A DNA stretch of 15,517 nt from Roseburia sp. GTDB taxonomy: Bacteria; Bacillota; Clostridia; Lachnospirales; Lachnospiraceae. Below, piece by piece: positions 1-15,517 of the stretch. Under the pieces are notes generated by a model. That model did not search any database and was not told the origin of the DNA. It was given only the letters and a program-made list of their open reading frames with translations. Every line of letters begins with the position of its first letter. The stretch's first letter is position 1. The position numbers and the translations under genes are program-made. The stretch covers positions 1 to 15,517 of the forward strand of contig JAUUNJ010000027.1 of assembly GCA_030844625.1 (NCBI GenBank), in the 5' to 3' direction.

Positions 1-124
1 GATGAAATTTTCATCCGCCTACTCTACATGGATGACTTGTGAGAGGACGCTTATATATGCCCAATCAACGTTATGAAGTGCGCTACAAAATCTGCGAGTT
101 ACGTTATGGAACTCCGGTTGTGGG

Positions 125-262: not shown

Positions 263-290
263 CCGCCATAGTTAATAAGCGGTCGTTTTT
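262..290. terminator. Short stem-loop, possibly bidirectional terminator
   Basis: ACCGC at 262-266 pairs with GCGGT at 279-283 around a 12-nt loop. On the plus strand it is followed by CGTTTTT; on the minus strand the same stem is followed by TATTTTTG. The stem is only 5 bp, so termination would be modest. It would serve the small frame ending at 262 on the plus strand and the minus-strand frame remnant ending at 301 on the other. Confidence 0.4.
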
Positions 291-300
291 GCGTTGATAT

Positions 301-414
301 TTAGTTTATATTAGCCAACACACCACATATTGACTCAAACCGTCTAACGGATATTTGCTTGTTATTTTTTATACCTACACATTTTAGCACATCAAAAATG
401 TATTTGCAATAGTC
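301..414 (-). pseudogene. Minus-strand open frame remnant, unknown
   Basis: On the minus strand, 37 sense codons are open between a TAA (415-417) and a TAA (301-303), with no ATG. The translation (including KYIFDVLKCVGIKNN and ISVRRFESICGVLA) has an amino-acid mix that looks protein-like rather than random. It is followed by the stem-loop at 262-283, as a gene 3' end would be. It is in frame with the longer minus-strand frame at 415-639, which carries the long hairpin. One reading is an old gene interrupted by insertion of the hairpin element. No family is recognised, and chance openness in AT-rich DNA is possible. Confidence 0.2.
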
Positions 415-438
415 TTAACGAAATAGAACAAACCTATT

Positions 439-529
439 ATGTAAAATGGACGGATATTGTTTTCGTTTTGCGTTAGGGAGAGTTTCATCTCCATAACGCA
501 ACGAAATACAATATCCGTCCATTTCACAT
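439..529. repeat. 91-nt near-perfect hairpin, MITE-like element
   Basis: The arms at 439-475 and 494-529 are inverted copies. The outer 22 bp (starting ATGT, containing GGACGGATATTGT) match with one mismatch. The inner parts (TTTCGTT, GCGTTA) match after small indels. The loop itself folds further: GGAGA at 477-481 pairs with TCTCC at 488-492 around a 6-nt loop. The whole is far longer than a terminator and has no T-tract. It could be a miniature inverted-repeat element, a structured RNA, or a palindromic repeat dispersed in the genome. No clear target-site duplication flanks it. Confidence 0.65.
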
Positions 530-604
530 TCATGCTTTTGTAAGTATGTCAGACTGCAATATTTTGTTTGTAATCCAAAAGTCTTTACACAAGAGAATAA
601 TATG

Positions 605-633
605 TTGAATTTCTTTACATCTAAGACTATAAT
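605..633 (+). promoter_or_regulatory. Sigma-70-type promoter upstream of the truncated gene
   Basis: TTGAAT (605-610) and a perfect TATAAT (628-633) are separated by 17 bp, placing a predicted transcription start near 640. The downstream gene starts at 691, leaving a leader of about 50 nt. The promoter and leader are covered by nested inverted repeats: 620-628 with 662-670, and 641-647 with 655-661. Confidence 0.6.
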
Positions 634-670
634 GAACATATATTCTTGATATATAAGAATAAGTCTTAGA
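620..670. repeat. Nested inverted repeats over the -10 region and leader
   Basis: TCTAAGACT at 620-628 is the inverse of AGTCTTAGA at 662-670. Inside it, TATTCTT at 641-647 pairs with AAGAATA at 655-661 around a 7-nt loop. The outer left arm reaches the first base of the -10 box and the inner stem begins about at the predicted transcript start. It could be an operator or a 5' leader hairpin. There is no T-run typical of a terminator. Confidence 0.35.
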
Positions 671-690
671 AGTTAGGAAAAAGTGCAATT

Positions 691-1416
691 ATGATCACAT
701 ATATTTGCCACAATAAAAATGACAAAACAGGTGAGGATCTGCCATGTACAAATAATCGATGTGAGACAAGTATATGTCCCAGTTGTGGCGGACGGGCAGA
801 TGCCATTTCAGAGATTTTCTGGTGTCCAGAATGTCAGGTGCCAATTTATGAGAAGACTTGTCCGGTTTGTGGACAGGAAGGAAAAAAGCTGACCAGTGAT
901 GTAAGCCCGGTGTTTCAGGAAGAACGTCTGCTGTTAGAAATCATTTTGGAAAAGCCGTTTGCATTTGAAAAAGATTCTGTCTGGAACGGCAACGGAAATA
1001 ATTATTTTGTAAATGGAAAAAAAATTAAATTTTCTGTCAAAGATCTGAAAAATAAGGATGCAGATGCAATTCGAAAGCAATATGAAGAATTAAAAGCGCA
1101 GAATACTTATCAGTATTTTGAAAAACAGATGGAACGTTTTATTTTGTGCAATAAAGAACGATATAACCGGATCGTGGAAGAGGCGAAGGGGTATATCAGA
1201 AGCATGACAGAGAATTTTGATATCACAGATATGTTTGTCTCGTTCAGCGGAGGAAAGGATTCTACTGTCACAGCAGCACTTCTTGCAAAAGGATTTCGAG
1301 AAGTTGTTCAGACAGCAGCCAATGCATTTCGTACTTTTGCTGACAAGTTGGAGGTAGATTATTCACAGAAAGAGCAGAAACATCCAAGAAAATCAAGACA
1401 AAGTATAGAATGCTAA
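691..1416 (+). pseudogene. Truncated PAPS-reductase-family (PP-loop) protein with zinc-ribbon N-terminus
   Basis: The N-terminal part is rich in zinc-binding CxxC pairs (C29/C32, C45/C48, C57/C60). After a helical linker it reaches the PP-loop ATP-pyrophosphatase motif SGGKDST at residues 186-192 (FVSFSGGKDSTVTAALL), characteristic of PAPS-reductase/sulfurtransferase-like enzymes that adenylate a substrate. Such proteins need a further 200 or so residues after the PP-loop. Here the family-like sequence stops about residue 200, and the last 40 residues (lysine- and glutamine-rich) run into group II intron debris, so the catalytic domain is incomplete. The start is the ATG at 691, with an AGGA-like RBS about a dozen bases upstream and a good promoter before it. 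It is probably inactive. The zinc-finger-plus-PP-loop layout parallels the intact minus-strand gene at 1655-2656. Confidence 0.75.
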
Positions 1417-1650
1417 AGGCATTAGATTAGGCCTAGAAGAATGGAAAGACAAGAAATTAGATATTAGTAGAAATGGTTATTGGAGAATAGCAAAAGTTTT
1501 AAACCAAATCTTTTTCAATAAAATAATAGCCAAGTTTGGATATACATCTATACTTGACTATTATCTAATGGTTTTTGAAAACTAGAGAAGACCATATATG
1601 GTGTTGTGAGGTCGACCAATCAACTAATGAGAAAGTCTCATACCCAATAG
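1380..1650 (+). mobile_element. Group II intron remnant: RT/maturase C-terminus and 3' RNA tail
   Basis: Two adjoining frames give the end of a group II intron reverse transcriptase/maturase. One reads KKIKTKYRMLKAL (about 1386-1424). After a one-base frame change the other reads GLEEWKDKKLDISRNGYWRIA, then FGYTSILDYYL, ending in TAG at 1583-1585. The GYWRIA and LDYYL motifs are typical of the C-terminal maturase/DNA-binding end of intron-encoded proteins. The stretch after the stop (1586-1645, with GGTGTTGTGAGGTCG) resembles the 3' RNA region that follows these ORFs but is shortened, so domains V/VI are probably degraded. The reverse transcriptase body and intron 5' end are absent. This is dead intron debris, joined directly to the broken PP-loop gene. 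The identification is by remembered family patterns. Confidence 0.6.
1627..1641. terminator. Small hairpin downstream of the minus-strand PP-loop gene
   Basis: ATGAGA (1627-1632) pairs with TCTCAT (1636-1641) across a 3-base loop, 14 bases past the stop of the minus-strand gene. No strong T-tract follows on the minus strand, so it is a weak terminator candidate. It may instead be part of the decayed intron 3' structure. Confidence 0.25.
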
Positions 1651-1654
1651 TTAA

Positions 1655-2656
1655 CTATACAACTATATCAAATTGAAGCATCATGCCGCCAAAATTGTCA
1701 ATAAAATAGGCATATTGCGTTGGATGAGTTTCTTTCAGCTTTTGATAACGATTGGATTCTGGAGCCTCAAGGTGAACTCCGAACCCACAAAACATACAAC
1801 CATTTCTTGTATAATCCATATTGTATAAATCTGGGATCTTAACATTATATTTTTCAATATATTCATTGATATCATCATCAGTCCAAAAAGAGAGTGGCTT
1901 ACATTGGTTGTCTTTAAATTGATAAAAAACATTACAGCCATATTCAAGCCATGCTTTTTCACGTTGGTAACTTTCGGATGCCAGGATTCCTAATATAACA
2001 CATTTCATCCCTAATTCTTTTGCTTTACGGCGAAGTGGCTCCTTTTTTAGCTTGTCGCAACATTTATCAGAAATAGGTAATTCCATATATTTTTGATATT
2101 TCTTGAAGTTGCGCTCTATGTAATCAATAGAGTTTTGCTTGGTACGAGGAGTTTTTGCGTGTTGATATGTTCTGATGGCGTTTGAAACGCGTTTGGAGAA
2201 CATAGGATACCCATAGTGTTCCACTACTTTTTTGAAATTCCACATTTCTCCCTTAGAATCTATAGGATAGACAATCATGATATTGGTATGATTTTCTTTG
2301 ATTTCCCATTGGATGTGTTTTAAGGTTTCAGGATATTCGTTAGTGGTATTTGCAAATAAATGTAATATGTTAGGGTATAATTGTTTAGTAATATGAGATA
2401 ACACCGTAGAGTCTTTTCCACCCGAATAAGATATGTAGCAGTGATCTTCTCCAAAAGTTCTAACAGCTTGATTAATAAGATACTTTGTCTGAATTATTTT
2501 GGCTTCAAGAGGCATAGAACGCAATGAAGCTAAAGTGTCACGTCGGTAAGTGAGATATTGAGTACGTTCTTCTCCACATTTCTTGCAGTATCTGGAATCA
2601 CGACTATAACGCATGCTTTCATCGTACTCTTCATCACATTTTTTACAAACAAACAT
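1655..2656 (-). CDS. PAPS-reductase-family PP-loop protein with zinc ribbon
   Basis: A 333-residue protein. An N-terminal zinc ribbon (C4, C7, C24, C27) is followed by the PP-loop motif SGGKDST at residues 78-84. A later cysteine set (C199/C200 in KCCDKLKKEP; C287/C290 in GCMFCGFG) could bind an iron-sulfur cluster, as in PAPS reductases and DndC. It belongs to the adenylate-forming sulfurtransferase/PAPS-reductase fold, but the substrate cannot be read from sequence. The ATG at 2656 is chosen over a more upstream one (2719) because AAGGAGGA lies 8 bases before it, and the upstream extension would cover the promoter. The gene is transcribed divergently from the xre-dndC operon, so it may supply or assist sulfur transfer in the same system, or be an independent island gene. 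It is not DndC itself, which is present at 3134. Confidence 0.85.
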   Translation of the reverse strand: MFVCKKCDEEYDESMRYSRDSRYCKKCGEERTQYLTYRRDTLASLRSMPLEAKIIQTKYLINQAVRTFGEDHCYISYSGGKDSTVLSHITKQLYPNILHLFANTTNEYPETLKHIQWEIKENHTNIMIVYPIDSKGEMWNFKKVVEHYGYPMFSKRVSNAIRTYQHAKTPRTKQNSIDYIERNFKKYQKYMELPISDKCCDKLKKEPLRRKAKELGMKCVILGILASESYQREKAWLEYGCNVFYQFKDNQCKPLSFWTDDDINEYIEKYNVKIPDLYNMDYTRNGCMFCGFGVHLEAPESNRYQKLKETHPTQYAYFIDNFGGMMLQFDIVV

Positions 2657-2664
2657 TGTTTTAA

Positions 2665-2672
2665 TCCTCCTT
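2665..2672 (-). promoter_or_regulatory. Ribosome binding site deciding the start of the minus-strand PP-loop gene
   Basis: On the minus strand AAGGAGGA sits 8 bases before the ATG at 2656. This near-perfect Shine-Dalgarno sequence supports that start over the more upstream in-frame ATG at 2719. Confidence 0.8.
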
Positions 2673-2684
2673 TTCTGTTTTTGA

Positions 2685-2752
2685 ACTAACAAATTCTTTG
2701 TATTTTTATTATAATACAAAATAATTGTTAGTCAAGAGTGGAAATACAAAAT
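2685..2752. promoter_or_regulatory. Candidate operator: inverted and direct repeats in the divergent region
   Basis: ACTAACAA at 2685-2692 is inverted as TTGTTAGT at 2725-2732, 40 bp apart. TTTGTATT at 2697-2704 is inverted as AATACAAA at 2713-2720. AATACAAAAT occurs at 2713-2722 and again at 2743-2752, 30 bp apart. Spacings near whole helical turns and overlap with both promoters make these candidate binding sites for the XRE protein encoded next door. That the XRE protein binds here is inference; the repeats are AT-rich and could be partly fortuitous. Confidence 0.4.
2708..2735 (-). promoter_or_regulatory. Promoter of the minus-strand PP-loop gene
   Basis: On the minus strand TTGACT (2735-2730) and TATAAT (2713-2708) are separated by 16 bp, close to consensus. 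A TTTGTATT-N8-AATACAAA dyad (2697-2720) is centred on the -10 box, and one half of the ACTAACAA inverted repeat overlaps the -35, suggesting repression by a local regulator. Confidence 0.65.
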
Positions 2753-2756
2753 TTTA

Positions 2757-2785
2757 TTGTGAAAAAAGCTTAATTATAGTACAAT
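2757..2785 (+). promoter_or_regulatory. Promoter of the xre-dnd operon
   Basis: TTGTGA (2757-2762) and TACAAT (2780-2785) are spaced by 17 bp, with a predicted start near 2792 and a short leader to the ATG at 2812. A copy of AATACAAAAT ends 4 bases before the -35. No other strong promoter was noticed inside the tightly packed operon, so this may drive all the genes to the right edge. Confidence 0.6.
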
Positions 2786-2811
2786 AAACAATTGGAAAGG
2801 TGGGCATTTCT

Positions 2812-3144
2812 ATGGAAATTGGAAGCAGATTATCTGAATTAAGAAAGAAATATGGATATACACAAAAACAATTAGCAGAGGCTCTCAATTTGTCTCAACA
2901 AAGAGTGAGTAACATAGAAAGGAATACCACGGCACCAGATGTGGAATTTTTACATGGTGCAGCTGATTTGTACAAGATTTCTTTAGATGAACTTATTGGT
3001 AGAAGAACACTTATCACTGAGGAAAGCAGCTATGAACAGCAGATATTAAATGTCGTTGAAACTATGGACGACACAAAAAAAGAGCTGAGTTTGCGTTTGT
3101 TAAACGAAGTGGCTCAACAAAGAGGTGATAAAGATGGCGAATAG
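2812..3144 (+). CDS. XRE-family helix-turn-helix regulator
   Basis: A 110-residue protein with an N-terminal HTH_3 (Cro/CI-type) DNA-binding domain, residues about 5-58 (IGSRLSELRKKYGYTQKQLA, then LSQQRVSNIERN for the recognition helix region). A short C-terminal helical tail is probably for dimerisation. The ATG at 2812 is preferred over an in-frame GTG at 2800, which lies inside the Shine-Dalgarno sequence GGAAAGGTGGG. It is the first gene of the plus-strand operon; its 3' end overlaps dndC by 11 nt. The likely role is autoregulation and control of the divergent PP-loop gene and the Dnd operon through repeats in the 2685-2752 region (inference). Regulators of other dnd clusters are known, but orthology to them cannot be shown here. 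Confidence 0.85.
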   Translation: MEIGSRLSELRKKYGYTQKQLAEALNLSQQRVSNIERNTTAPDVEFLHGAADLYKISLDELIGRRTLITEESSYEQQILNVVETMDDTKKELSLRLLNEVAQQRGDKDGE

Positions 3145-4522
3145 TTATTTTAACGAAAATACGCTTGAGGAGTTAATTGAAGAAATTAAGTATGTCTACA
3201 AGTCTGATGACAGACCATGGGTTATAGGATATAGCGGGGGTAAGGATTCCACAACCGTGGTAGAACTTGTTTATAAGATGTTATTGGGATTAGATCCAGA
3301 TGATAGACATAAAAATGTTTATATTGTATCTTCGGATACTCTAATTGAAAATCCACTTATAAAAATATATTTAAGTAAAATGAATGATTTGTTGGGACAG
3401 GCAGCAGATAGAGATGGGCTACCAATAAAGTCGGCTATGGTTACACCTCCACCAAACAATTCGTTTTGGGCAAATGTAATTGGAAGAGGATTCCCTACAC
3501 CTAGAATGAATGGAACATTCAGATGGTGTACAGATAGATTAAAAATAAATCCTAGTGGTGAATATATTCAAAGAGTTATTGATGAGGAAGGAAAAGAAGT
3601 GGTTGTTCTTCTTGGAGTTAGAAAAGCAGAAAGTATAGCACGAAAGAGAAGAATTGAAGGCAGAGAACTTGCAAATAGACTTCTAAATCGACATGAAACC
3701 ATACAGGATGCATATGTTTATAACCCTATTGTAGAACTAACCACAGATGATGTGTGGGATGTTTTACTTAGGTGTGATGGCGGAAGAACACCTTGGGGAT
3801 CAGATAATAGCGAGTTGGTATCGCTTTATGCTGATGCAGATAGTGGAGAATGTCCTTTTGCTGGTATTCATGCAGGTGGTCAGACACAGAGCTGTGGTAA
3901 TTCACGTTTTGGGTGCTGGGTATGCACAGTTGTTAAAGAAGATAAGTCGTTAAATGGATTTATAAAGAGTGGACATAGAGAGTTGATACCACTTGCTGAA
4001 TTTAGAAGTTGGCTTATAAGCATACGAGATAATGAAGAATATCGAGAGAAAAAGAGAAGAAATGGAACGGTATATCGTGATAAGCAAGGTAATATGGGAT
4101 TCGGTCCATTTAACTGGAAAGCAAGAAAACTTATTCTTCGAAAGTTGTTAGAAACCCAACAGGTTATGGAATATGAACTTATAACATTAGATGAACTGAA
4201 AGCAATAGATGAAATCTGGGATCAAGAATTAGACTTATCTCGAAGAGTTTTAGTGGAATTATATGAGGAAATAACAGGGAAAAGACTTCCGTGGTATGAC
4301 TATAAAGAACCTTTGATTGATAATGAAACTGTTGTTGAATTAGAAAATCTGGCTCAAAAAAATAATGTGCCAGAGGAATTGATCCGCAATCTGTTATTAT
4401 CGGTTTATCGAAATAAAAACTATTCAAATCAAAAAATACTTAGAGATGGAATAGATAAACTATTGAATCAGCAATGGCTACATTATGAAATAATAGAGGA
4501 GATTGAAAATGAAAATCAATAA
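3134..4522 (+). CDS. dndC: DNA phosphorothioation sulfurtransferase DndC
   Basis: A 462-residue PP-loop/PAPS-reductase-like enzyme. SGGKDST lies at residues 34-40. The cysteines expected for a DndC-type iron-sulfur centre are at C132 (FRWCTDRL), C240 (GECPFAG), C254 (QSCGNS) and C261/C264 (GCWVC). In Dnd systems DndC activates the DNA backbone with ATP and transfers sulfur supplied through DndA, working with DndD and DndE. The length and cysteine arrangement fit DndC well. The start is the ATG at 3134 with GAGGTGAT just upstream; an in-frame GTG at 3125 lies within that RBS. It overlaps the xre gene by 11 nt and dndD by 14 nt, indicating translational coupling. Confidence 0.93.
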   Translation: MANSYFNENTLEELIEEIKYVYKSDDRPWVIGYSGGKDSTTVVELVYKMLLGLDPDDRHKNVYIVSSDTLIENPLIKIYLSKMNDLLGQAADRDGLPIKSAMVTPPPNNSFWANVIGRGFPTPRMNGTFRWCTDRLKINPSGEYIQRVIDEEGKEVVVLLGVRKAESIARKRRIEGRELANRLLNRHETIQDAYVYNPIVELTTDDVWDVLLRCDGGRTPWGSDNSELVSLYADADSGECPFAGIHAGGQTQSCGNSRFGCWVCTVVKEDKSLNGFIKSGHRELIPLAEFRSWLISIRDNEEYREKKRRNGTVYRDKQGNMGFGPFNWKARKLILRKLLETQQVMEYELITLDELKAIDEIWDQELDLSRRVLVELYEEITGKRLPWYDYKEPLIDNETVVELENLAQKNNVPEELIRNLLLSVYRNKNYSNQKILRDGIDKLLNQQWLHYEIIEEIENENQ

Positions 4523-6647
4523 AGTAAAATTACATAATTTCAGCTCCTATGAGGGTAATAATGAATTTGATTTCGAGATAACAGATGCTGGAAAAAACAT
4601 TGTACTCATTGGTGGAAAAAATGGGGCAGGTAAAACTTCTCTTTTTACGGCAATAAAAGTTGCTTTGTATGGACCATTAGCATATGGATATGTAGGTGTA
4701 AATAGTCATTACATTTCTAAAATTAAAGACTTAATCAATTCAAAAGCATTTCAACAGGAGGTTGTGGAATCGGAAGTACAGTTAACGCTACAACTTAAGA
4801 TTGAGCGTGATATTAGAAATTATGTGATAACAAGAAAATGGGATTATACCAATCAAAAGCTTACAGAGGAATACACAGTAGAAAGGGATGGAAAGCTACT
4901 GAACGATCAAGAATTATCATATTTTGAGAACTATTTGCGTAGCATTATTCCTCCAGATCTGTTTGAGTTCTTTTTGTTTGACGGAGAAGAGGTTGGTAAT
5001 ATTTTCTCCACCAGTGCATACAACACATATGTTAGAAATGCAGTATTCACCATGTGCGGAATGGATGTGTTTGAAATTATCCGTAAATTCACAGGTGGCT
5101 ATGTAGCAAAGAACAATTCTAATGATGACGATGAGGTCTATGACACATATGAATCGGCAAAGCAGCAGATAGAATCATTAGAAACCGAAAAGGAAAACCT
5201 TGATATCGAAGTAGGCAATTTGACAAAAGAACTAGAAAACATTGGTATTCAACTTACTGAATTGGCGACTGCTTTTAAAAATGCAGGAGGAATTTCACGT
5301 AAGGAGAAAAAACAGTTAGAAGATGAGTATGCTTTAGCTGAAAAGGTAAAAACGGAATCACTTACAAATATTAAGTTGTTTGTGGAAGGGCTTATGCCAT
5401 TTTATATACTGCGAAATTTTGCTGATCCTATTATGGCACAATTAGATTTTGAAGAAAAAGGTGAGATATTTTATTACGTTCAAAGTAAGCTGAAACGAGA
5501 TGTAATATCTGATTTACTAAAAGGCGATGTGTCCGATGCAAAAGTAGATCAGTTAATGGATCATCTGTTGGATACATTTAGACCAAAAGGTTTCCGTGAA
5601 GACATGGAAATGATGTTTGATTTATCAAAGGAGGATATTGGTCGAGTAAATGGAATTGTATCGTCTTTGGATGATTTCGATGTATCAGCAATGGTTGATA
5701 TGGTCAATAAAAGGAGGGCAGCTTCTGAAAGAACAGCAGAAATTAATAGAATTTTGAAAAACTCGATGAGCGAGGAGGACATTAATGAATTTGCTCAGAG
5801 AGAAAATGAAATTTTAAAGAAAAAAGATGACCTATCAAGTATACTGTATGATTCACAACATAGATTAGAGGAAATTGATAGAGAATTGCAGATGCAAGAA
5901 CAAACTAGAGATAAAGCTATGCATATTCTTAAATCAAATGCTCAGAACAGGCATGTGTACGAGCTAAGCTCCGGTATTTCTTCTATGATGGAACAGTTCT
6001 TAGAAGAGAAGACTGTGAGTATAAGAAGGAAGCTAGAAAAGGCTATTGTTCAAAAACTGAAGTCAATTTATAGAAAGAATAATTTGATAACGCATATTGA
6101 AATTGGAAAGAATTTTGATTTCAATTTGTATCAAGATGAGGAATACAATGGCAAGGAACTTTTGACACTATATAAGAATTTGGGTAATTCCGAATTTACA
6201 AATCTTATTGGAACTAAAGGTGAAAAGCGACTAGTCAAAATGTTGGAAGGTACTTCAATAAATGTGCTAAAAAATAAGTCTGAATCTGATTTTGGGCAGG
6301 AACCAATTCGATTGTATAAGAAGATTGAATTGGGGAGATTGTCAAAGGGAGAGCGTCAGATTTTTATCTTGGCATTATATTGGGCGATAATTGAGATATC
6401 AGGACAGAATATCCCGTTTATTATTGATACTCCGTATGCGAGAATTGATGCAAATCATAGGAGAGAAATCTCAGAGAAGTTCTTCCCTAATATTAGTGAT
6501 CAGGTAATTATTCTGTCTACGGATGAAGAAATAAATGAGGAGTACTATAAGATAGTAAAACCTTATGTCTCTAAAGAGTATCTGTTAATCAATGACGAAA
6601 ACGAAAACAGAACTACAATTAAGAATAATTACTTTTTTGAGGTGTAA
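4509..6647 (+). CDS. dndD: DNA sulfur modification protein DndD (SMC/RecN-like ATPase)
   Basis: A 712-residue ABC/SMC-type ATPase. Walker A GGKNGAGKTS is at residues 35-44. A DLFEFFLFDGEEV segment is typical of DndD. Coiled-coil stretches lie at about 213-256 and 430-475. The ABC signature LSKGERQI starts at residue 611 and Walker B IPFIIDTP at 635-642. DndD is thought to supply ATP-dependent DNA handling or nicking during sulfur incorporation. The ATG at 4509 has AGAGGAG 7 bases upstream; the in-frame TTG at 4503 is within that spacing and is rejected. It overlaps the end of dndC and is followed 3 nt later by dndE, the canonical dndC-dndD-dndE order. Confidence 0.93.
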   Translation: MKINKVKLHNFSSYEGNNEFDFEITDAGKNIVLIGGKNGAGKTSLFTAIKVALYGPLAYGYVGVNSHYISKIKDLINSKAFQQEVVESEVQLTLQLKIERDIRNYVITRKWDYTNQKLTEEYTVERDGKLLNDQELSYFENYLRSIIPPDLFEFFLFDGEEVGNIFSTSAYNTYVRNAVFTMCGMDVFEIIRKFTGGYVAKNNSNDDDEVYDTYESAKQQIESLETEKENLDIEVGNLTKELENIGIQLTELATAFKNAGGISRKEKKQLEDEYALAEKVKTESLTNIKLFVEGLMPFYILRNFADPIMAQLDFEEKGEIFYYVQSKLKRDVISDLLKGDVSDAKVDQLMDHLLDTFRPKGFREDMEMMFDLSKEDIGRVNGIVSSLDDFDVSAMVDMVNKRRAASERTAEINRILKNSMSEEDINEFAQRENEILKKKDDLSSILYDSQHRLEEIDRELQMQEQTRDKAMHILKSNAQNRHVYELSSGISSMMEQFLEEKTVSIRRKLEKAIVQKLKSIYRKNNLITHIEIGKNFDFNLYQDEEYNGKELLTLYKNLGNSEFTNLIGTKGEKRLVKMLEGTSINVLKNKSESDFGQEPIRLYKKIELGRLSKGERQIFILALYWAIIEISGQNIPFIIDTPYARIDANHRREISEKFFPNISDQVIILSTDEEINEEYYKIVKPYVSKEYLLINDENENRTTIKNNYFFEV

Positions 6648-6650
6648 CCA

Positions 6651-7031
6651 ATGATATTTAGATTAAAAACATCAAAGAGAACACAAGAAATCTTTGAGGA
6701 ACTAGAAAATAGAACAAATTACAAACCATATACATTGGTAAAGCATGCAATAGCGTGGTCTATATTAGAAAAAACATCTGTTGCTGATTATAAGTCAGAT
6801 TCTGATGGGCTAGATCTAAATAGGCAAACAATTACTGGAGATAATGATACATATTTTAAGGTGCTTATAGAACAGGTGGAAGGAAGATACCTGACAGATG
6901 AAGAGTACTTTCCACAGTATGTTAAAGCGCATATAGATAGGGGAAGTAAGCTATTACTTGATATGTACAATCACGCTGGAAATATGGATAAGTACATTTT
7001 GCAAGTATTGGGTGAGGGAGATACCGTATAA
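6651..7031 (+). CDS. dndE: DNA sulfur modification protein DndE
   Basis: A 126-residue protein in the canonical dndE position. It begins MIFRLKTSKRTQEIFEELEN, matching the usual opening of the DndE family, with helical character throughout and a basic N-terminus suited to DNA contact. DndE is a small DNA-binding subunit of the modification complex, reported to favour nicked DNA. The start has GAGGTG 7 bases before the ATG, within the end of dndD. No catalytic motif is expected. The identification combines sequence resemblance and position. Confidence 0.88.
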   Translation: MIFRLKTSKRTQEIFEELENRTNYKPYTLVKHAIAWSILEKTSVADYKSDSDGLDLNRQTITGDNDTYFKVLIEQVEGRYLTDEEYFPQYVKAHIDRGSKLLLDMYNHAGNMDKYILQVLGEGDTV

Positions 7032-7049
7032 CAGGAAAGAGGAAAAATT

Positions 7050-8999
7050 ATGGGAACAATGGTTGGAACGGTAATAACTGTTAAAGAATTATATGGGATA
7101 AAGAGCGCAGACATTCAATTTAGAAACGGTACTAATAGCACACCATTAATAACTTTGGAAGAAAACAGAAAATACATTGTCCCATATTTTCAAAGAGAAA
7201 TTAGATGGACAAAAGATAATTTAATTACCCTTATTAATGATGTTAGGAAGGGATCAAAATTTCTTGGAAACCTAATATTCACAAAAAGACAAAGCGATTA
7301 CGAGATTCTTGATGGACAACAACGTACGACGGTAATCGCACTAATAGTTTTATTTTTAAAGAGTAAATACTCGGAACGGTTTGATATATTTGAGACTTGT
7401 GAAATAACGGTAGAAAGTTTCCCAGGATTTAGAAATCTATGTAATCATTTTTTTGATTTAGAAAAGATTCCTGAATCTGAAATGGAAGAAATAATCGGAA
7501 GTGATTGTTATGGCCAGCGTGATAAATACATGGAAATATGGGATGCCATGGAAAAAGTTGATCTCTTTGCAAATATTGCAGAGGCAGAGGATTTTCTCAA
7601 GAATTTAGAACAATCACAATTGAATGTGATTATTGAAACAGATTCTGCGGAGAGAAGTATTGAGGCATTTTTGGATGTGAATCTTAAAGGAGTGCGACTA
7701 GATGCAGAAGACATCTTTAAGGGTTATCTGTTTGCGCAAGACAACTCAGAGGAATTATTTAAAATCTGGAGTAAATTAAAACAAGAAAATAAAGTATTAA
7801 ATACGTATATTGATTATCCGTTTATGATGCTTTTGGAGCACTTTTTACAGTGTGAGTTATCAAAACATGAAAGTTATCGTTTGATAGAATTCTCAACAGA
7901 TTTTACGTTGAAGAATGAAAAAGAGATCGAAGGTAACAAGTATAGCTCTGGAGAACATATAATTAAAATTATACATAATAAAAAATATATTAGAGAAGAA
8001 TTAATTGTATTGGATAAGATACAAGAACTTTTAGTTTCTATTGTAACAGAAACGCATGCACCGGCTGAAATAAAAGGATATTACAAGAAACTGGCAGATG
8101 CAGATAAGAAATTTAAGGTGGATAACGATGAAATAGATATTATGTATAATTTGCTTCGAAAAGTAGTATTAGACAAGAATAAAGCTCCAAATTGTTTAAT
8201 AATCAAATACTTGTTGGAAAGTTTCATAAATTTAGAATTTCGTAAGGACAATTTTGATTCAATATATGGGGTTTTTGTAACATCTACATTATTTACTTTA
8301 TATGAAACAAAGAAAAACAGTGATGGGCTTTATAAAATTATAAGATCAGATGACTGGGAAGGACAAATGATAAATTATGCCATAACTTGTTTTGAGGGAA
8401 GAGAATTAACGAGTAGGCAAATATCGGCTGGCTATCAATTTGTTCTAACTAAAAGCCAAAGTATTTCACAGGAAAAGCAGGAGTTTAGATGTAAATCTAT
8501 TGCTACAATATATGAATATTTTGATATTGACAACAATGGAATACGAATCAAGCCCCATAAAACTAAGGAATTAGAACAATTTTTGAATGATTCTGAAAAA
8601 TATAGTGTGGAACACTTCATCATAAATGATAGTGGAAAATGTGAATGTAAGTTAAGTACAAATGCGACGTTTGAGTATGAATATCCCGAGGAAATAAAGA
8701 AGTATAAGAATTCTTTATTTAACTATGTATTTATCGATAGAGAGACAAATGGAAATATCAAAAATTTGTACTTGCTAGAAAAAGTTGAAGTTCTTGCGAA
8801 CCCTGATAAAAATATAAAAGGATATTCAGGAAAAGTAATTCAATTAGTATCTGATAAATTAAAATTGCCAGATCCAAAAGGATTTGATGGCGAAGAGGAG
8901 GCAAAGGGAGAGTTAGATCGATATTTTCAAATGGATTTCAGAAATCAATATGCACAATTTGCTGCTAGTGTAATTGAAATGATTTCGAAAGGAGAATAA
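7050..8999 (+). CDS. DUF262 (GmrSD N-terminal / SspE-type) protein, candidate restriction or sensing component
   Basis: A 649-residue protein whose N-terminus is a DUF262/ParB-like domain: PYFQREIRW at 45-53 and the signature DGQQRTT at 88-94. DUF262 proteins hydrolyse nucleotides and occur in GmrSD modification-dependent restriction enzymes and in SspE, which acts with phosphorothioation. The C-terminal region has a possible DUF1524-like HNH remnant: H522 in SVEHFII, N558 in SLFNYVF and N567 in ETNGN, in an order resembling H...GNL...N. The match is partial, so nuclease activity is uncertain. The gene starts at an ATG with AGAGGA upstream, 18 nt after dndE and 2 nt before dndA. Its place inside the modification operon suggests PT-dependent function. 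It is not DndB, although DndB also carries a DGQHR-type motif. Confidence 0.8.
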   Translation: MGTMVGTVITVKELYGIKSADIQFRNGTNSTPLITLEENRKYIVPYFQREIRWTKDNLITLINDVRKGSKFLGNLIFTKRQSDYEILDGQQRTTVIALIVLFLKSKYSERFDIFETCEITVESFPGFRNLCNHFFDLEKIPESEMEEIIGSDCYGQRDKYMEIWDAMEKVDLFANIAEAEDFLKNLEQSQLNVIIETDSAERSIEAFLDVNLKGVRLDAEDIFKGYLFAQDNSEELFKIWSKLKQENKVLNTYIDYPFMMLLEHFLQCELSKHESYRLIEFSTDFTLKNEKEIEGNKYSSGEHIIKIIHNKKYIREELIVLDKIQELLVSIVTETHAPAEIKGYYKKLADADKKFKVDNDEIDIMYNLLRKVVLDKNKAPNCLIIKYLLESFINLEFRKDNFDSIYGVFVTSTLFTLYETKKNSDGLYKIIRSDDWEGQMINYAITCFEGRELTSRQISAGYQFVLTKSQSISQEKQEFRCKSIATIYEYFDIDNNGIRIKPHKTKELEQFLNDSEKYSVEHFIINDSGKCECKLSTNATFEYEYPEEIKKYKNSLFNYVFIDRETNGNIKNLYLLEKVEVLANPDKNIKGYSGKVIQLVSDKLKLPDPKGFDGEEEAKGELDRYFQMDFRNQYAQFAASVIEMISKGE

Positions 9000-9001
9000 A
9001 A

Positions 9002-10195
9002 ATGATTTATTTAGACAATAGTGCGACTTCTCCTATTGATGAGGAAGTTAGAGATGCGATGCTTCCATATTTGAATGAGGAGTTTGGAAATCCGTCAAGT
9101 AAATATTATTGCAAAGCAACTCATGCTAAGAATGCTGTCGAGGAAGCCAGAGAAAAGGTTGCAAGGTTGCTAGGTGCAAAGCCGGATGAGATTATTTTCA
9201 CAGCTGGAGCAACAGAAAGTACAAATTTTATTATTAAGGGATATTTGGATTATAGAAAGTTTTATGGAGATGGCAAGAATCATGTGATTACATCTCTTGT
9301 AGAACACAAGGCAACATTAAACACCTGTAAGTATTTGAATGGTGAATTATATTCAAACAATGATCCTACTACATCTTTATTTGGTGTAAAGAAAAAAGTA
9401 GATAGAGGATATGAAGCTTCATTTGTTGGAGTTACTCCAGATGGTGAGATTAGTGTTGAAGAAATTACTTCTGCAATTAAAGAAAATACAGCACTTGTAT
9501 CAATGCTTTATGTGAATAACGAAATAGGGACAATAAGTGATGTTGAGTCAGTGGCAGAAATCTGTAAGAAGAATAACATTGCACTTCATTCTGATTTAAC
9601 ACAGGCTTTAGGTAAGATAGAAATTGATGTTAAGAGAATGGGAATCGATTATGCTTCTTGTTCTGCACACAAAATATATGGACCTAAAGGCATAGGCGCT
9701 GCATTTATGAAGTCTGATGCTTATGGGATAGTACCTATTACAGCATTTATGCATGGAGGAGAGCAGGAATTTGGATTCCGTGCAGGAACACATGCAGTTC
9801 ATAATATTGTAGGTTTTGGCAAAGCGGCTGAAATAGCACTTAGAGATCTTAAGAAAAATGAAGCATATATAAAAAGTTTGGATGATATGTTGATTGAAGG
9901 TATTTCTACTATTGAAGGTATTCATACAACTGTAAATATATCAAAGCGTTTACCTGGTATTGTTAGTTTGGTAGTGGACAAGACAGATTTTCATAATGAG
10001 AGATTCATTAAGAAGATTAGCGAAGAGGTGGCTTTGTCGACTGGATCTGCTTGTAGTGCTGGAGAACCATCTTATGTAATACAGGCACTTGGATTGGCAG
10101 ATAAGGTTACAAAAGTACTTAGAGTGTCTATAAACAAATATACAACAGCAAAAGATATAGAAGAATTTGTAGGCATACTTAAAGCTGAAATTTAG
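9002..10195 (+). CDS. dndA: Cysteine desulfurase, DndA/IscS-type
   Basis: A 397-residue class V aminotransferase-fold PLP enzyme. It opens MIYLDNSATSP. FTAGATESTN is the PLP-phosphate region. SAHKIYGPKG contains the PLP Schiff-base lysine K224, and STGSACSAGEPS carries the catalytic cysteine C351. It releases sulfur from L-cysteine as an enzyme persulfide and would support DndC sulfur transfer and iron-sulfur assembly. Sequence alone hardly separates DndA from IscS/NifS; the position within the dnd operon decides the name. The ATG is preceded by AAAGGAG. Here the gene follows dndE and the DUF262 gene, unlike the classical arrangement in which dndA lies beside dndBCDE, often divergent. Confidence 0.88.
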   Translation: MIYLDNSATSPIDEEVRDAMLPYLNEEFGNPSSKYYCKATHAKNAVEEAREKVARLLGAKPDEIIFTAGATESTNFIIKGYLDYRKFYGDGKNHVITSLVEHKATLNTCKYLNGELYSNNDPTTSLFGVKKKVDRGYEASFVGVTPDGEISVEEITSAIKENTALVSMLYVNNEIGTISDVESVAEICKKNNIALHSDLTQALGKIEIDVKRMGIDYASCSAHKIYGPKGIGAAFMKSDAYGIVPITAFMHGGEQEFGFRAGTHAVHNIVGFGKAAEIALRDLKKNEAYIKSLDDMLIEGISTIEGIHTTVNISKRLPGIVSLVVDKTDFHNERFIKKISEEVALSTGSACSAGEPSYVIQALGLADKVTKVLRVSINKYTTAKDIEEFVGILKAEI

Positions 10196-10210
10196 GAGGA
10201 ATAACACGTT

Positions 10211-13200
10211 ATGGCATTAATGATGGATAACAAGCCAACTGAATATAAAGGTGAAGCGTTAGTATGGGAAAAACTGTATTCTTTATTGCCTAACGATGTT
10301 GTTGTCTACAATCATCGAGAGGTGGTTGATGATCGTGAATTTGATTTCGCATTGCTTATAAAAAATGTTGGAATTATGGTCATTGAAGTAAAAGGATGGC
10401 AGTCTCAGTACATCTTTGATGTGAAAGGTCCTGATGAAATTGTGATTCAAGGAGAAACCCAAATTTATGGTTCTCCAGAGAAACAGGCAAGAGGATATAG
10501 ATTTGATTGGCTGAATTTTTTGAATGACCAGTTTGCAATAAGTCCTGTTGTATTATCAATGGTATGTTATCCGTTTATATCAGAAAAAGAATATAAGGAT
10601 GTAAGGTTAGACATTGTATCATCTAGGGATTTTACTATTTTCTCGGATGACCTGAATTCAGCAACTAAGCTAGGGCAGAAGATATCAAATGCATTTGTCA
10701 AGAAAAAGCCGTTAAACAGTACTCCGTTTGATGAAAAAGCAATGGCTATAGTAAGACAACATTTTGAACCATCATATAAGGCAAAGGATGATCAAATTGT
10801 AGAGGTTTCGGATGCATATTCATTACTGAAGGTATTCAACAAAGAATTAACAGAAAAGGATTCAGATGAATTGATAGAAATGTATTTTGCCGGAACAAAG
10901 ATTGTTGCATTTGTTAAGAGTGAAATAGATTTGTTATCCGTTTGCAATAAGTTGGAAGCAGGATTTAATGCCAGAGGTATTATTTCTGATAAAGGAAATG
11001 TGAGATTGGCAGAAATAGATGAAAGAAATGATTTTCGTGGTGCATCTGGCTCATATAGAATATTTAATTTTGAAATCTATACACATAATTTGGATTTGAA
11101 TAACGATGAAATTATTGTAGAGGGACAATATACAGAACAACAAAAATTGATACTTGAAGATGTTGCAAATTCCACAAGCTGGAATTTTGATCAGTATAAG
11201 GTTGAACATGCAATGGGTGATAAAAATGTGCTTGTTCAAGCAGGTGCGGGAACTGGTAAAACCTACTCAATGGTATCTCGTATTGCCTATTTGTGCATGA
11301 GTAGAAAACGATTTGTAAATAATCTTGTAGATGAGATTGCTATGATAACTTTTACGAATGAAGCTGCTGATAATATGAAGTTAAGACTAAAGCAGTATTT
11401 TATGAATTGTTATATTCTTACTAAAAACAAAAAAGTGCTACATGAAATAGAGGCTGTAGACTTAATGCAGATTTCGACCATACATAAATTTGCAAAAACT
11501 GTTTTGCAAAGCAGTGCTATGGAATATGGACTGGGTGCGGATTTTGCAATTTCCTCAAGTGAGTATGCGAAAGAGCAAGTATATGAGAAATATCTTAATA
11601 ATTTTCTGGTTGAAAAGCAAAAAGAGGACGCGAATTTTGCCCAACAACTAAGAATGCCTGTTCATAAGTTCAGAAAGTTGTTAATGCATTTTTCACAGCA
11701 ATTATATAATAAGAGTTATGGGATTAAAGAGCTTAAAGCAGAAAATCTAGGAACATTTGAAGCGTGGCCATTTTTTAATGAAGTCATAATGAAGGTTATG
11801 ATACCAGCAGAAAATGAATACGAAGAGCAGATATTCTCAAAAAATAAAATAGATCTGAAAGAAAGTATGCTATTACTGAACGATGCAGTAAATGGAGTAT
11901 TTAAGGGAAAATGTAGTTTTAAATATAAGTACTTATTTATTGATGAGTTTCAGGATACTGATGATGTTCAGATTGATTCTTTCTTAAAGTTACAAAATGT
12001 GATTAAAGATACAAAGCTGTTTGTAGTTGGCGACTTAAAGCAGAGTATTTACCGTTTTAGAGGTGCGACAATTAGTGCATTTGATCTGATTAGAACAGAT
12101 AAAGAAAAATGGGAAGAATTTTCACTTACCATAAATTATAGAACTGATAAGAGATTATTAGATAAATTTGATGCAGTATTTTCTAAAATGGGCTCAAAAG
12201 GGTATTTGCCATTTCATAAAGGAAAGGATTCGCTGACCAGTAGTGTTGAGACGTATCTATCGGAACATGAGTTAGTGACCCAATTAGAGTATGACGGCGA
12301 TGAGCAGAGGATGGAACAGCTCTTTGCAGAAATCGCAAGGCAGAAAGATATTATAAAATATCTATCCAAGCATCATAAACTATCTTCTAAAGATATGATA
12401 ATTGCCATTTTAGTAAGAGATAATTGGCAAATTCATAATATTTTGGAAGAAGCAAAGGTTCGAGGTGAGTTTATAGAAACTCAAGTAGGTGGAGATTTAT
12501 ATCAGCTTATGCCTACTTTAGATTTGTATAAATTGGTAATTGCGCTGCTTAACCCGAGAGATCCAGTGAATCTTTTTAATTTGATAGATTCAAATTATGT
12601 AGGAATTCAGTTAGATATACAAGGATTACATGGTTTGGGCACAGAGGAGCAGGTAAAAAGGTTAACAGATGTACTTAATCAGTATTTCACAACTGTGATG
12701 AACACAACATGGGAAAAGATAATTATGGATACTAGGGTTCAACCAATTTTAATGCTGCTGAGGAGTATCTATGAAGGATGTCAGCCTTGGTATCAATATT
12801 CAAATACCGATAGTGAGCAAAGATTCTATAAAGCAAATTATGAATTGGTATTAGAAAAAATAATTAAAACATATAGTGTAGATTACTTAACTCTCACTGT
12901 GATAGAACACAGTATGCATATAAATATTATGACAAAGCAGGAAGAACTCACACGAAATATTGAGGTTGAGACTGATGATATACGAGTGATTTGTACTACT
13001 GTTCATAAAGCAAAAGGATTGGAATATGGATGCGTAATTATGCCATATATGGGTATGGATATTTCATCAATGAAGAAAGCTGATTTAGATGTGTATGTAG
13101 AAAATGAAAAACTTGCATATGGAATTAGAATTGGAGATGAACCAAACAAGAAATATAATTCCAATTATGATGTATCGCAGGAACAAAATGAACGAGTTAA

Positions 13201-13315
13201 CGAAGAAAGTCGAGTATTGTATGTAGCGCTAACACGAGCTATCAGAAATGTTGTTTGGATGAAGGATATTAAATCAAAGAGCAAGATTTCGTGGCAGAAT
13301 TTAATGGAGGTATAA
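10211..13315 (+). CDS. NERD-domain UvrD/AddA-like helicase
   Basis: A 1034-residue fusion. The N-terminal NERD nuclease-related domain (about residues 12-115) keeps the PD-(D/E)XK-type residues D45 and E59-V-K61 (VIEVKG) and E15. A superfamily 1A helicase follows: Q-motif region YTEQQKLILED, Walker A AGAGTGKT at 344-351, DEFQD at 578-582, VVGDLKQSIYRFRG (motif III), TTVHKAKGLEYG (motif V) and VLYVALTRA at about 1002-1010 (motif VI). This is an ATP-driven 3'-5' DNA translocase related to AddA/UvrD with a potential nuclease domain at the front instead of the C-terminal one of AddA. The start is ATG at 10211; the RBS GGAGG is about 11 bases away. It follows dndA by 15 nt and is 1 nt from the AddB-like gene, pointing to a helicase-nuclease complex working with the Dnd proteins (inference). 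Confidence 0.85.
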   Translation: MALMMDNKPTEYKGEALVWEKLYSLLPNDVVVYNHREVVDDREFDFALLIKNVGIMVIEVKGWQSQYIFDVKGPDEIVIQGETQIYGSPEKQARGYRFDWLNFLNDQFAISPVVLSMVCYPFISEKEYKDVRLDIVSSRDFTIFSDDLNSATKLGQKISNAFVKKKPLNSTPFDEKAMAIVRQHFEPSYKAKDDQIVEVSDAYSLLKVFNKELTEKDSDELIEMYFAGTKIVAFVKSEIDLLSVCNKLEAGFNARGIISDKGNVRLAEIDERNDFRGASGSYRIFNFEIYTHNLDLNNDEIIVEGQYTEQQKLILEDVANSTSWNFDQYKVEHAMGDKNVLVQAGAGTGKTYSMVSRIAYLCMSRKRFVNNLVDEIAMITFTNEAADNMKLRLKQYFMNCYILTKNKKVLHEIEAVDLMQISTIHKFAKTVLQSSAMEYGLGADFAISSSEYAKEQVYEKYLNNFLVEKQKEDANFAQQLRMPVHKFRKLLMHFSQQLYNKSYGIKELKAENLGTFEAWPFFNEVIMKVMIPAENEYEEQIFSKNKIDLKESMLLLNDAVNGVFKGKCSFKYKYLFIDEFQDTDDVQIDSFLKLQNVIKDTKLFVVGDLKQSIYRFRGATISAFDLIRTDKEKWEEFSLTINYRTDKRLLDKFDAVFSKMGSKGYLPFHKGKDSLTSSVETYLSEHELVTQLEYDGDEQRMEQLFAEIARQKDIIKYLSKHHKLSSKDMIIAILVRDNWQIHNILEEAKVRGEFIETQVGGDLYQLMPTLDLYKLVIALLNPRDPVNLFNLIDSNYVGIQLDIQGLHGLGTEEQVKRLTDVLNQYFTTVMNTTWEKIIMDTRVQPILMLLRSIYEGCQPWYQYSNTDSEQRFYKANYELVLEKIIKTYSVDYLTLTVIEHSMHINIMTKQEELTRNIEVETDDIRVICTTVHKAKGLEYGCVIMPYMGMDISSMKKADLDVYVENEKLAYGIRIGDEPNKKYNSNYDVSQEQNERVNEESRVLYVALTRAIRNVVWMKDIKSKSKISWQNLMEV

Positions 13316-13316
13316 A

Positions 13317-15517
13317 ATGTCATTATCAATATATACTTACAGCAATCCATATGAAATAAATAATGAACCCTATTGGGATTCAATAAGAAACTGTGCACAT
13401 TTTTGCGTTTCGCAGACAATGGTAAATGGATTGTCAGCAGTATATGATGAATTAGATAATGGACAATTAGCAACAGTAGAAGAATTAGTAGAAGCATTAT
13501 ACCCAGGATGGTTTGATACAAAAACATACATTGAACAGTACACAATTTTAACCAATACACTAGATAAAGTGACGCCAAACATTGAACCTGATAGATGGAA
13601 AAAGATAAAACAATCTCTGCGATTCAATAAGAGTGCATTGTTGGATAGTATTCGACTGATGGCTGAAATGGGTCTGTTATTAAAAAATATAAAAATTAAA
13701 AAGATAACGGAAGAGCAAATGTATTTAGTTGCTACTTATAATGCAATTCTGCGAGGTGAGGATGCCAAGATTTTTGATTTAAAAAAGAATTTTTCGGAAA
13801 GTGAAATTGATAATGCTGTCAAAACAGCATTGGTGGCAAAAGATAAAAGGCGAGGTAAGGAAGTAAAAGCTATAGAGAGTGTTGATTGTAATACTGTAGT
13901 TATTCATGGAATACATCAATTTACTCCAACAATTCTTTCAATGCTTGAAGAGGTTTCAAAATACAAGCGGGTCGTGTTGTTATTTAATTATCAACAGCAG
14001 TATAACGAGATATATCAAACATGGTTGGATGTTTATTCCTGTTTTGATTTGAATATAAAGAGTCAGTTCAATAACGAATTTAAGCCAACAACATTGCTAC
14101 AGCCGAGCTACGAAGGAAATATGCTCGCAGATCAAATTGGAAGATTAGCTAATGGAACACTCATTGAAAAAAGCAAGGATATAAATAATGTAAAGGTTGT
14201 AGAGTTTGATAATATTACAGAATTTTCAGCATATGTTGCACGAATATATGAGGAGGCTGCTAAAGATTTTCATGCAGACGAACATAAGAACGGATCAGTT
14301 CTTTCATATATGAAGGAACAGTTTTATTCTGCCAATAATTCTGTAAATGATATATTGAAAGTCTATTTTCCAGAACAATTTGGGGAAAGACATTTCTTGG
14401 CTTATCCGATTGGTCATTTTTTCGTAGCTGTTACTAATATGTGGGACAGTGAAAATGGTGGTATTAGAATCGAGAATATGAATGATATTGCAGAATGCTT
14501 GTATTCAGGAGTTCTCTATGAAAAGAAAGTAGGATCATTAATTACTACCTTCAATCAGACAAGAAATTATTTTTCTAGGGCGACAAAGTTGGAAGGCGAT
14601 AGCGAAACAGATGGCGTAATTGATTTGCTGAAAAAGCTAAAGAAACAAATATCCAAGCTTAATAATGGTAAAATAGAGTATAACGAACAATTAGCGAAGT
14701 TATCATATTTCAATGTTGAATTAGATGAAATAGATGAGCTGATTGAAACACTTGAGGCACTTAATACTATTACAAAGATATTCTATGAAGATTTTGAAAA
14801 TGAGAATAATAATTTTAAGCATTTTTATGAGAAATTGAAGGATTTTGTAGAAACACAAATCCTTCCAACCGCAGATGCTGAAACGGAGTTTCAGGATATT
14901 TTGTTGAGATTATTAGCTAGACTAGAAGAAGTTGAAAAAATCGAGTCAACTAGCACATTTGATTGTTTAAAGGATACAATGGCATATTATTTGAAACAGG
15001 AAAGTCAGAAGGGTGAAAGTGCAAACTGGATTGTCAGAGACTTCCAGCAGATTGATGGGGATATATTGAAAAGCTCAACTCAGGATCCTGACACAATTTA
15101 TCATTTTGCGTGTGTGTCCGATTCTGATATGAATGTAAAACGAGAAGATCAATTTCCATGGCCATTGACTATAGAGTTTTTTGAAAGAGCATACGAACCT
15201 TTAGATTGGAAATATCAGGTTTATGTGAAGTCAAGAAAAGAATTTAAACATTTTAAAAGATATGCACTGATTTATGGATTAGAGTTTAATAGATGTAAGG
15301 TTAAACTGAGCTTTATAAAAAACGATGATGATAAAGAAAATGAACTGTATTATATCTTAAAACTGTTAGGGGTTAAAACAGAAAAAAATATTCATGATAC
15401 GACAGAGGTTCATGAGAGACAAAATATCACATTTGATTTGGGGAAAAATACAAATAATTTTGTGGATTTAGATGGATTTAGAAGACGCATATGTGGATAT
15501 AGATTTGCATTAGAGTC
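13317..15517 (+). CDS. AddB-like protein, 3' end outside window
   Basis: The frame opens at ATG 13317 with GGAGG 6 bases upstream and stays open for 733 codons to the right edge. It lies 1 nt after the NERD-UvrD gene. No Walker A motif is visible, as in helicase-dead AddB/RexB partners. Resemblances to AddB-type proteins include VVLLFNYQQQYNEIYQTW early on, QQIDGDIL, FPWPL, and a final DLDGFRRRICGYRFALE. That last segment looks like the cysteine-bearing entry (C-Y-R-F) to the C-terminal RecB-type PD-(D/E)XK nuclease with an Fe-S staple. The nuclease motifs would lie beyond the window. It is most likely the partner of the upstream helicase. Family assignment is moderate because AddB proteins diverge strongly. 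Confidence 0.65.
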   Translation, partial: MSLSIYTYSNPYEINNEPYWDSIRNCAHFCVSQTMVNGLSAVYDELDNGQLATVEELVEALYPGWFDTKTYIEQYTILTNTLDKVTPNIEPDRWKKIKQSLRFNKSALLDSIRLMAEMGLLLKNIKIKKITEEQMYLVATYNAILRGEDAKIFDLKKNFSESEIDNAVKTALVAKDKRRGKEVKAIESVDCNTVVIHGIHQFTPTILSMLEEVSKYKRVVLLFNYQQQYNEIYQTWLDVYSCFDLNIKSQFNNEFKPTTLLQPSYEGNMLADQIGRLANGTLIEKSKDINNVKVVEFDNITEFSAYVARIYEEAAKDFHADEHKNGSVLSYMKEQFYSANNSVNDILKVYFPEQFGERHFLAYPIGHFFVAVTNMWDSENGGIRIENMNDIAECLYSGVLYEKKVGSLITTFNQTRNYFSRATKLEGDSETDGVIDLLKKLKKQISKLNNGKIEYNEQLAKLSYFNVELDEIDELIETLEALNTITKIFYEDFENENNNFKHFYEKLKDFVETQILPTADAETEFQDILLRLLARLEEVEKIESTSTFDCLKDTMAYYLKQESQKGESANWIVRDFQQIDGDILKSSTQDPDTIYHFACVSDSDMNVKREDQFPWPLTIEFFERAYEPLDWKYQVYVKSRKEFKHFKRYALIYGLEFNRCKVKLSFIKNDDDKENELYYILKLLGVKTEKNIHDTTEVHERQNITFDLGKNTNNFVDLDGFRRRICGYRFALE

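Follow-up and report, generated by a model that had tools for sequence, protein, structure and literature searches.

The stretch of Roseburia sp. DNA analysed here (15,517 nucleotides (nt), contig JAUUNJ010000027.1 of assembly GCA_030844625.1, positions 1 to 15,517; hereafter the window) carries phosphorothioation (dnd) genes in one operon with a NERD-UvrD helicase-nuclease gene and an AddB-like gene, and the question it raises is what kind of partner these last two genes provide for the dnd genes. Proteins of the DndA, DndC, DndD and DndE families add sulfur to the DNA backbone of their host. Based on gene content, gene order, linkage, intact motifs, a predicted fold and homology to DpdE-I, the window probably represents the 5' portion of a Bacillota restriction-modification system that uses phosphorothioation as its mark and combines a Dpd-type core with a RecBC-like nuclease. 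On the best reading, the system is neither Dnd-FGH nor Dpd, though parts of both are used, and is a predicted variant of phosphorothioate restriction-modification.

Eight co-directional open reading frames (ORFs) run on the + strand from position 2812 to the window end in the order xre-dndC-dndD-dndE-DUF262-dndA-(NERD-UvrD)-(AddB-like), and both this order and all eight positions given in the original prediction were confirmed (Table 1). The intergenic distances are, in operon order, -20, -20, +3, +18, +2, +15 and +1 nt; the limit of 18 nt claimed earlier holds for the gaps and is exceeded by the overlaps (20 nt), and the description of the two modules as fused is right in the sense of one operon and in no other. 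Homologs of DndC, DndD and DndE share this operon, the first two scoring above the NCBIfam cut-offs and DndE above that of Pfam, with 44.8 bits against NCBIfam TIGR03184 (cut-off 71.9). The top match of the cysteine desulfurase is TIGR03235 (DndA) at 365 bits, yet this is below the model cut-off of 480. An alternative GTG start of xre lies at 2800, and an xre homolog is also found 5' of dndC in L001, L002 and L036, the loci nearest to the window. The window stops within the AddB-like gene, leaving the operon incomplete on its 3' side, and an NCBIfam scan found no DptF, DptG or DptH among the window ORFs, which end early.

For the AddB-like ORF, no Pfam, NCBIfam or PADLOC match was obtained at E 0.001. 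The predicted fold of its relative P0001 (96% identical) best matches AddB, which agrees with the identity first proposed. The window copy ends at residue 733, and full-length relatives have about 904 residues. Four cysteines are invariant, the last three of which lie beyond the window end and were seen in relatives only; counting these, the protein combines the AddB fold with the arrangement C-x(n)-C-x2-C-x5-C, which we take to be the iron-sulfur cysteine pattern of AddB. No recognisable Walker A or nuclease motif was found in it. In NERD-UvrD, residues E15, D45, E59 and K61 and the Walker A motif are invariant across 49 alignment rows, and the score against the AddA model TIGR02785 is 116 bits, below the cut-off of 708. 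The AddB-like protein is modelled as an AddB/RecC-fold subunit without recognisable active sites, and NERD-UvrD retains both the nuclease and the motor motifs. A distant pair was observed at L141 (12081-19207), where a UvrD protein, with no NERD domain found, and an AddB-like protein adjoin AAA_21 and RloB genes, with no dnd or Dpd homologs nearby.

What follows the pair was seen in relatives. One genome per species was scanned, and 55 loci with a relative of the AddB-like protein were obtained from 287 candidate stretches. NERD-UvrD stands before the AddB-like gene in 54 of the 55; in L055 the contig ends there. The AddB-like gene is followed, in constant order, by genes for four proteins of roughly 1120, 825, 265 and 1030 residues and a fifth of roughly 220. 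Counting ORFs above length limits, the first four of these core genes were present in 48, 46, 46 and 40 of the 55 loci, and the fifth in 33 of the 35 regions fetched downstream; many gaps arise because the contig or locus ends. In L002, the NCBIfam scores were 383 bits for DpdE (cut-off 500), 473 for DpdF (550), 304 for DpdH (450) and, weakly, 15.5 for DpdG (80), and PADLOC concurs on the homology to DpdE, DpdF and DpdH. When profiles were compared with those of the matching genes in five Dpd-type plasmid loci, the E values were 1e-133, 2e-125, 2.2e-35, 4.6e-85 and 9.5e-18 for DpdE, DpdF, DpdG, DpdH and the DpdI-like protein, respectively, and mismatched G/I profile controls gave 0.6 and 0.7. 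DpdI is used here as a name by position for the small protein encoded after dpdH, which the records annotate as hypothetical. Among the Dpd-type loci, the gene order is E-F-G-H-I-J-K-D in L107 and L108; in L109 other genes precede K and D, a second J-K pair is present in L106, where E, G and H are unnamed, and L110 has differently annotated genes after I.

The order DpdE-F-G-H, by which a Dpd system is recognised, is found in the relatives, outside the window and at scores under the equivalog cut-offs. In these relatives, NERD-UvrD and the AddB-like gene are the first two genes of a seven-gene module that continues with homologs of DpdE, DpdF, DpdG, DpdH and DpdI, and the nearest relatives suggest that the rest of the window's module has the same content. 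The helicase/AddB-like pair had been proposed as the partner of the dnd genes; the linkage stands, but the pair is probably not the whole partner, since the DpdE-I homologs follow it. Two extra genes (about 195 and 300 amino acids (aa)) were observed between the AddB-like and DpdE-like genes in L047 (12712-14189) and also in L048, L050 and L053; those of L047 had no Pfam or PADLOC match.

The dnd genes occupy the place where the dpd modification genes would be. With Enterobacter cloacae queries, no tblastn match to DpdA, DpdC, DpdK or DpdD was found in the 97 loci searched (L001-L090 and L145-L151, a set in which many flank one another), and DpdJ gave one 70-residue match only. In six control loci, DpdJ was detected in 6, DpdK and DpdD in 4 each, DpdA only as one cut piece (L106) and DpdC in none. 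Because of these weak controls, the absence of DpdA and DpdC is less well founded than that of DpdJ, DpdK and DpdD. Of the 7-deazaguanine modification genes the search covered dpdA and dpdC, dpdB being related to dndB.

The module is physically linked to dnd genes. On the same contig, dndC lies near the module in 45 of the 55 loci, in three arrangements: upstream in 10 loci, where dndC and other dnd genes are directly 5' of the module as in the window, downstream in the same direction in 24, and downstream on the opposite strand in 11. A pair usually found away from dnd genes had been set beforehand as the outcome that would refute the functional link; the counts here and in the genome draw described below came out in favour of the link. 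Eighteen of the 24 same-direction downstream loci were gene-mapped, and in 14 of these 18 the dnd set starts with a dndB-cluster gene, which scored above the TIGR03233 cut-off in both tested loci (L057 and L075). The dnd genes start 14-403 nt after the DpdI-like gene in 25 of 28 mapped downstream regions, 1340 nt after it in L077, and about 9.6 kb after it in L076 and L079, where DptFGH lies between. Both DptFGH and a Dpd-like module were observed beside one dnd operon in L073, L075, L076 and L079, all of Bacilli. Ten loci have no nearby dndC: seven are cut by contig ends (L008, L010, L015, L019, L035, L044 and L052), and in the other three, L027, L033 and L054, a dndA homolog is the only dnd gene near the module; in L027 and L033 it sits at the contig start. 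Positions were assigned by coordinates for L012, L014 and L042, and by coordinates followed by an overlap check for L006, L009 and L038. At genome level, DndC above the cut-off was found in 46 of 50 genomes and in 1 of 5 others (47/55).

An even draw of 397 Lachnospiraceae genomes served as an independent sample, although 10 of its 13 strong AddB-like genomes were already among the 55 loci. The AddB-like profile gave these 13 strong matches and a weak one in G335 (73 bits), and DndC was above its cut-off in 21 genomes. Among the genomes with a strong AddB-like match, 12 of 13 carry dndC, compared with 9 of 384 others (Fisher p 1.4e-16, the genomes being related); the thirteenth, G008, is the contig-end case L008. 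DpdF matches of at least 440 bits (below the curated 550) occurred in 12 of the 397, exactly the genomes with both AddB-like and dndC, and the next score was 229 bits. DptH was absent from all 12 genomes with module and dndC, and was detected, at scores under its cut-off, in 4 of 9 dndC genomes without the module (p 0.02 against 0/12); none was found in the genomes of L001, L002 and L036. DpdF matched strongly four times in 398 Bacilli genomes: twice in dpdJ loci (807-840 bits) and twice in dnd-linked modules (508-530 bits), with the next match at 249 bits.

Several observations weigh against a phosphorothioate system built on a Dpd core. None of the Dpd-like genes is inside the window, and none was observed on the contig from which it comes. 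In L054, which has both flanks, dndA is the only dnd gene, the module ORFs are truncated or merged, and DndC is absent from the genome; this locus is the one real exception to the dnd linkage. The genomes of L008, L010, L015, L035, L044 and L052 have no DndC above the cut-off, their contigs being cut. The distant UvrD and AddB-like pair of G335, which has no NERD domain, adjoins AAA_21/RloB without dnd. In addition, DptFGH is present in four Bacilli module loci (L043, L047, L048 and L050), and the module therefore need not be the sole restriction partner.

The strict linkage of the pair and its conserved motor and nuclease motifs would also fit an arrangement in which NERD-UvrD and the AddB-like protein alone are the restriction partner of DndCDE, degrading unmodified or invading DNA, with unrelated neighbours behind them. 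This is unlikely, since DpdE-, DpdF-, DpdG- and DpdH-like genes follow in constant order wherever contigs reach, and the 12 of 397 genomes that have strong DpdF homologs are the ones that carry AddB-like and dndC together. The resemblance of the pair to RecBC/AddAB, which process breaks, could instead point to a repair or end-processing device for breaks in phosphorothioate DNA rather than a restriction machine, but the Dpd genes to which the core is homologous are presumed to act in restriction (PMC12707154), and within Lachnospiraceae DptH is in 0 of 12 dndC genomes with the module against 4 of 9 without it, as if one had replaced the other. A repair function is accordingly given a low probability.

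The DUF262 protein of the window is another candidate for the real restriction effector, in which case the helicase-nuclease module would be a separate adjoining defence set. Its DGQQR motif and residues E521, H522, N558 and N567 are invariant in 24 alignment rows, its C-terminal GmrSD_C match reaches 14.4 bits (under the cut-off of 23), and profile comparison shows a weak resemblance to SspE in the N-terminal part only (E 0.0021). Its C-terminal HNH-like residues and its size recall DndI, a phosphorothioate-sensing nickase of the DUF262-HNH type whose 1971-bp ORF lies beside dndBCDE (PMC11662687). Against this, just one further fetched locus, L149 (genome of L002), has a member of the family, its gene being divergent from xre and beside a PAPS-reductase-like gene, and the module stays with dnd where DUF262 is missing, which makes this the most improbable of the explanations considered. 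The protein had been listed as a part of the system; it is indeed present in the operon, but by its distribution is a putative variable accessory of the known DndI/SspE kind.

For the preferred reading, that of a restriction system marked by phosphorothioation, a sequence of steps can be proposed. DndA, DndC, DndD and DndE would place the sulfur mark on host DNA. The DpdE-I core, with a DpdE-like SNF2-type ATPase, a DpdF-like RecQ-like helicase, a DpdG-like protein with an N-terminal winged helix and a DpdH-like AAA-type ATPase, would survey DNA and sense the lack of the sulfur mark, directly or via the Dnd proteins. It would then open unmarked DNA and load NERD-UvrD/AddB-like, which would unwind and degrade the DNA in the manner of RecBC; DpdJ and DpdK may have the equivalent last-step role in Dpd systems. 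From these relationships we infer that surveillance, loading, degradation and mark sensing are performed by the module, and that it restricts unmodified DNA. More tentatively, and with slightly less than even confidence, DpdE-I may be a mark-agnostic restriction chassis that works with a mark on the base (7-deazaguanine) or on the backbone (phosphorothioate) and with different nucleases (DpdJ/K or NERD-UvrD/AddB-like), and that takes self-recognition from the partner modification proteins, with no dedicated mark reader. Because the core of the module resembles the Dpd core, which accompanies another DNA mark, the finding suggests that one restriction engine can serve chemically unrelated DNA marks.

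The history of this association was examined with DpdF and DndC trees, which were quick searches with long-branch warnings and with support from the Shimodaira-Hasegawa-like approximate likelihood ratio test (SH-aLRT) only. Labels in the DpdF tree were downstream for L035 and upstream for L019 and L027, three loci on whose contigs dndC was not seen. In this tree the dnd-linked sequences share a group with L106, a Paenibacillus plasmid, and six other Dpd sequences stand apart from it (SH-aLRT 100); dnd position and Dpd label jointly need 8 changes. The DndC of the window and of nine upstream-type loci forms one clade (SH-aLRT 100), whereas the DpdF of L001, L002 and L036 groups with downstream-type loci (SH-aLRT 90); likewise, L024 and L029 are sisters in DpdF (SH-aLRT 100) and have DndC of two different major lineages (100). 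Because the two groupings disagree, the module seems to have switched dnd partners while keeping a dnd partner. L106 (32710-37784) carries DpdA, DpdE-I homologs and an AddB-like gene (57 bits) beside a shorter UvrD gene (225 bits), and is a possible intermediate between Dpd and dnd-linked systems.

Compared with Dnd systems that carry DndFGH (DptFGH), the dndCDE-A modification genes and their family signatures are common to both, but the nearest relatives of the window (L001, L002 and L036) have no DptH and their partner is the different seven-gene module. Dpd systems share DpdE-F-G-H and the gene after dpdH in identical order; here the E, F and H homologs are under the Dpd equivalog cut-offs, dnd replaces the dpd modification genes, NERD-UvrD and AddB-like are added, and dpdA, dpdC, dpdK and dpdD were not found by tblastn in the 97 loci. 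IscS-DndBCDE-DndI and SspABCD-SspE also have a DUF262 protein with DGQQR beside phosphorothioation genes, whereas here this protein is optional and next to a large helicase-nuclease module. AddAB and RecBCD likewise combine a superfamily 1 helicase-nuclease with an AddB/RecC-fold subunit with four invariant cysteines, but in the present pair the nuclease domain is N-terminal (NERD), the AddB-like protein has no recognisable Walker A or nuclease motif, and the operon is of defence type. BRIGADE and the YprA-centred relatives of Dpd also mix Dpd-like effectors with parts of other systems (PMC12458937); there a helicase of YprA/DpdJ type is defining and BRIGADE also has a deazaguanine cluster, whereas here the modification genes are of the dnd type and DpdJ is limited to a 70-residue trace at a single locus.

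A 2025 review recognises three branches of phosphorothioate restriction, dndFGH (with sspFGH), sspE and pbeABCD, and treats the DpdE-type core genes as the presumptive restriction cluster of Dpd systems (PMC12707154). In the main text of the main Dnd survey (PMC10853773), UvrD, AddB, RecQ and Dpd are absent, the scope being that text. The coupling of dnd with a Dpd core is likewise undescribed in the available parts of the BREX survey (PMC12839542), the YprA preprint (PMC12458937), the Dpd mining preprint, which required dpdAB (PMC11888242), the restriction review (PMC12707154), the paper on phosphorothioate origin (PMC8569181), PMC12704722 and PMC12904381. No description was found in the literature covered, with subscription papers and preprint servers mostly outside that scope, so that absence from print is unproven.

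Other genes vary around the system. Homologs 66% identical to the divergent PAPS-reductase-like gene of the window (1655-2719) lie 5' of xre in L149 (12212-13327; genome of L002) and L151 (1787-2803; genome of L036), the latter split in two reading-frame pieces. A Mrr/HARE-HTH gene stands between dndA and NERD-UvrD in L023 (by Pfam) and in L025, L032 and L036 (by clustering), and it and the DUF262 gene are taken as exchangeable accessories. In many downstream-type loci, as in L057 (7830-9615), dndA is followed by a gene for an HNH_4 protein (about 390 aa) and frequently by one for a small protein like S-adenosylmethionine methyltransferases. In the upstream-type loci L085 (17904-18821, - strand) and L086, a gene for an NADAR-type N-glycosidase follows the DpdI-like gene (by NCBIfam and by clustering, respectively). 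In the window itself, a short PAPS-reductase-like ORF at 691-1416 (+), with SGGKDS at residue 186 and weak PRK13795-type matches, appears truncated.

Table 1. Features of the window with their positions, strands and supporting matches.
Feature	Position	Strand	Evidence
PAPS-reductase-like gene in divergent orientation, a possible accessory in the window-type subclade	1655..2719	-	PF01507
xre-type helix-turn-helix regulator, first gene of the operon	2812..3144	+	HTH_3 57 bits
dndC, phosphorothioation sulfurtransferase	3125..4522	+	TIGR03183 413 bits, cut-off 290; SGGKDS at residue 37
dndD, ATPase	4503..6647	+	TIGR03185 362 bits, cut-off 246; Walker A GKNGAGKT
dndE	6651..7031	+	Pfam PF08870 91.3 bits, cut-off 25
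DUF262 (GmrSD_N) protein, predicted DndI/SspE-like accessory effector	7050..8999	+	PF03235 72.4 bits
dndA-type cysteine desulfurase	9002..10195	+	TIGR03235 365 bits
NERD-UvrD: N-terminal PD-(D/E)XK-type nuclease domain and RecB/PcrA-like helicase	10211..13315	+	PF08378, PF00580, PF13361 (NERD, UvrD_N and UvrD_C domains)
AddB/RecC-like subunit, incomplete at the window end (733 of about 904 residues)	13317..15517	+	Relatives with identities of up to 96%; AddB as best match of the fold predicted for relative P0001

If the preferred reading is true, the Dpd-core branch would suggest how restriction is carried out in those Lachnospiraceae that have Dnd but lack DndFGH (12 of the 21 dndC genomes in the one draw), and it would join dndFGH/sspFGH, sspE and pbeABCD (PMC12707154) and DndI (PMC11662687). 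How a Dpd-type core discriminates self from non-self would then become a testable question, because the core here stands beside a chemically unrelated mark.

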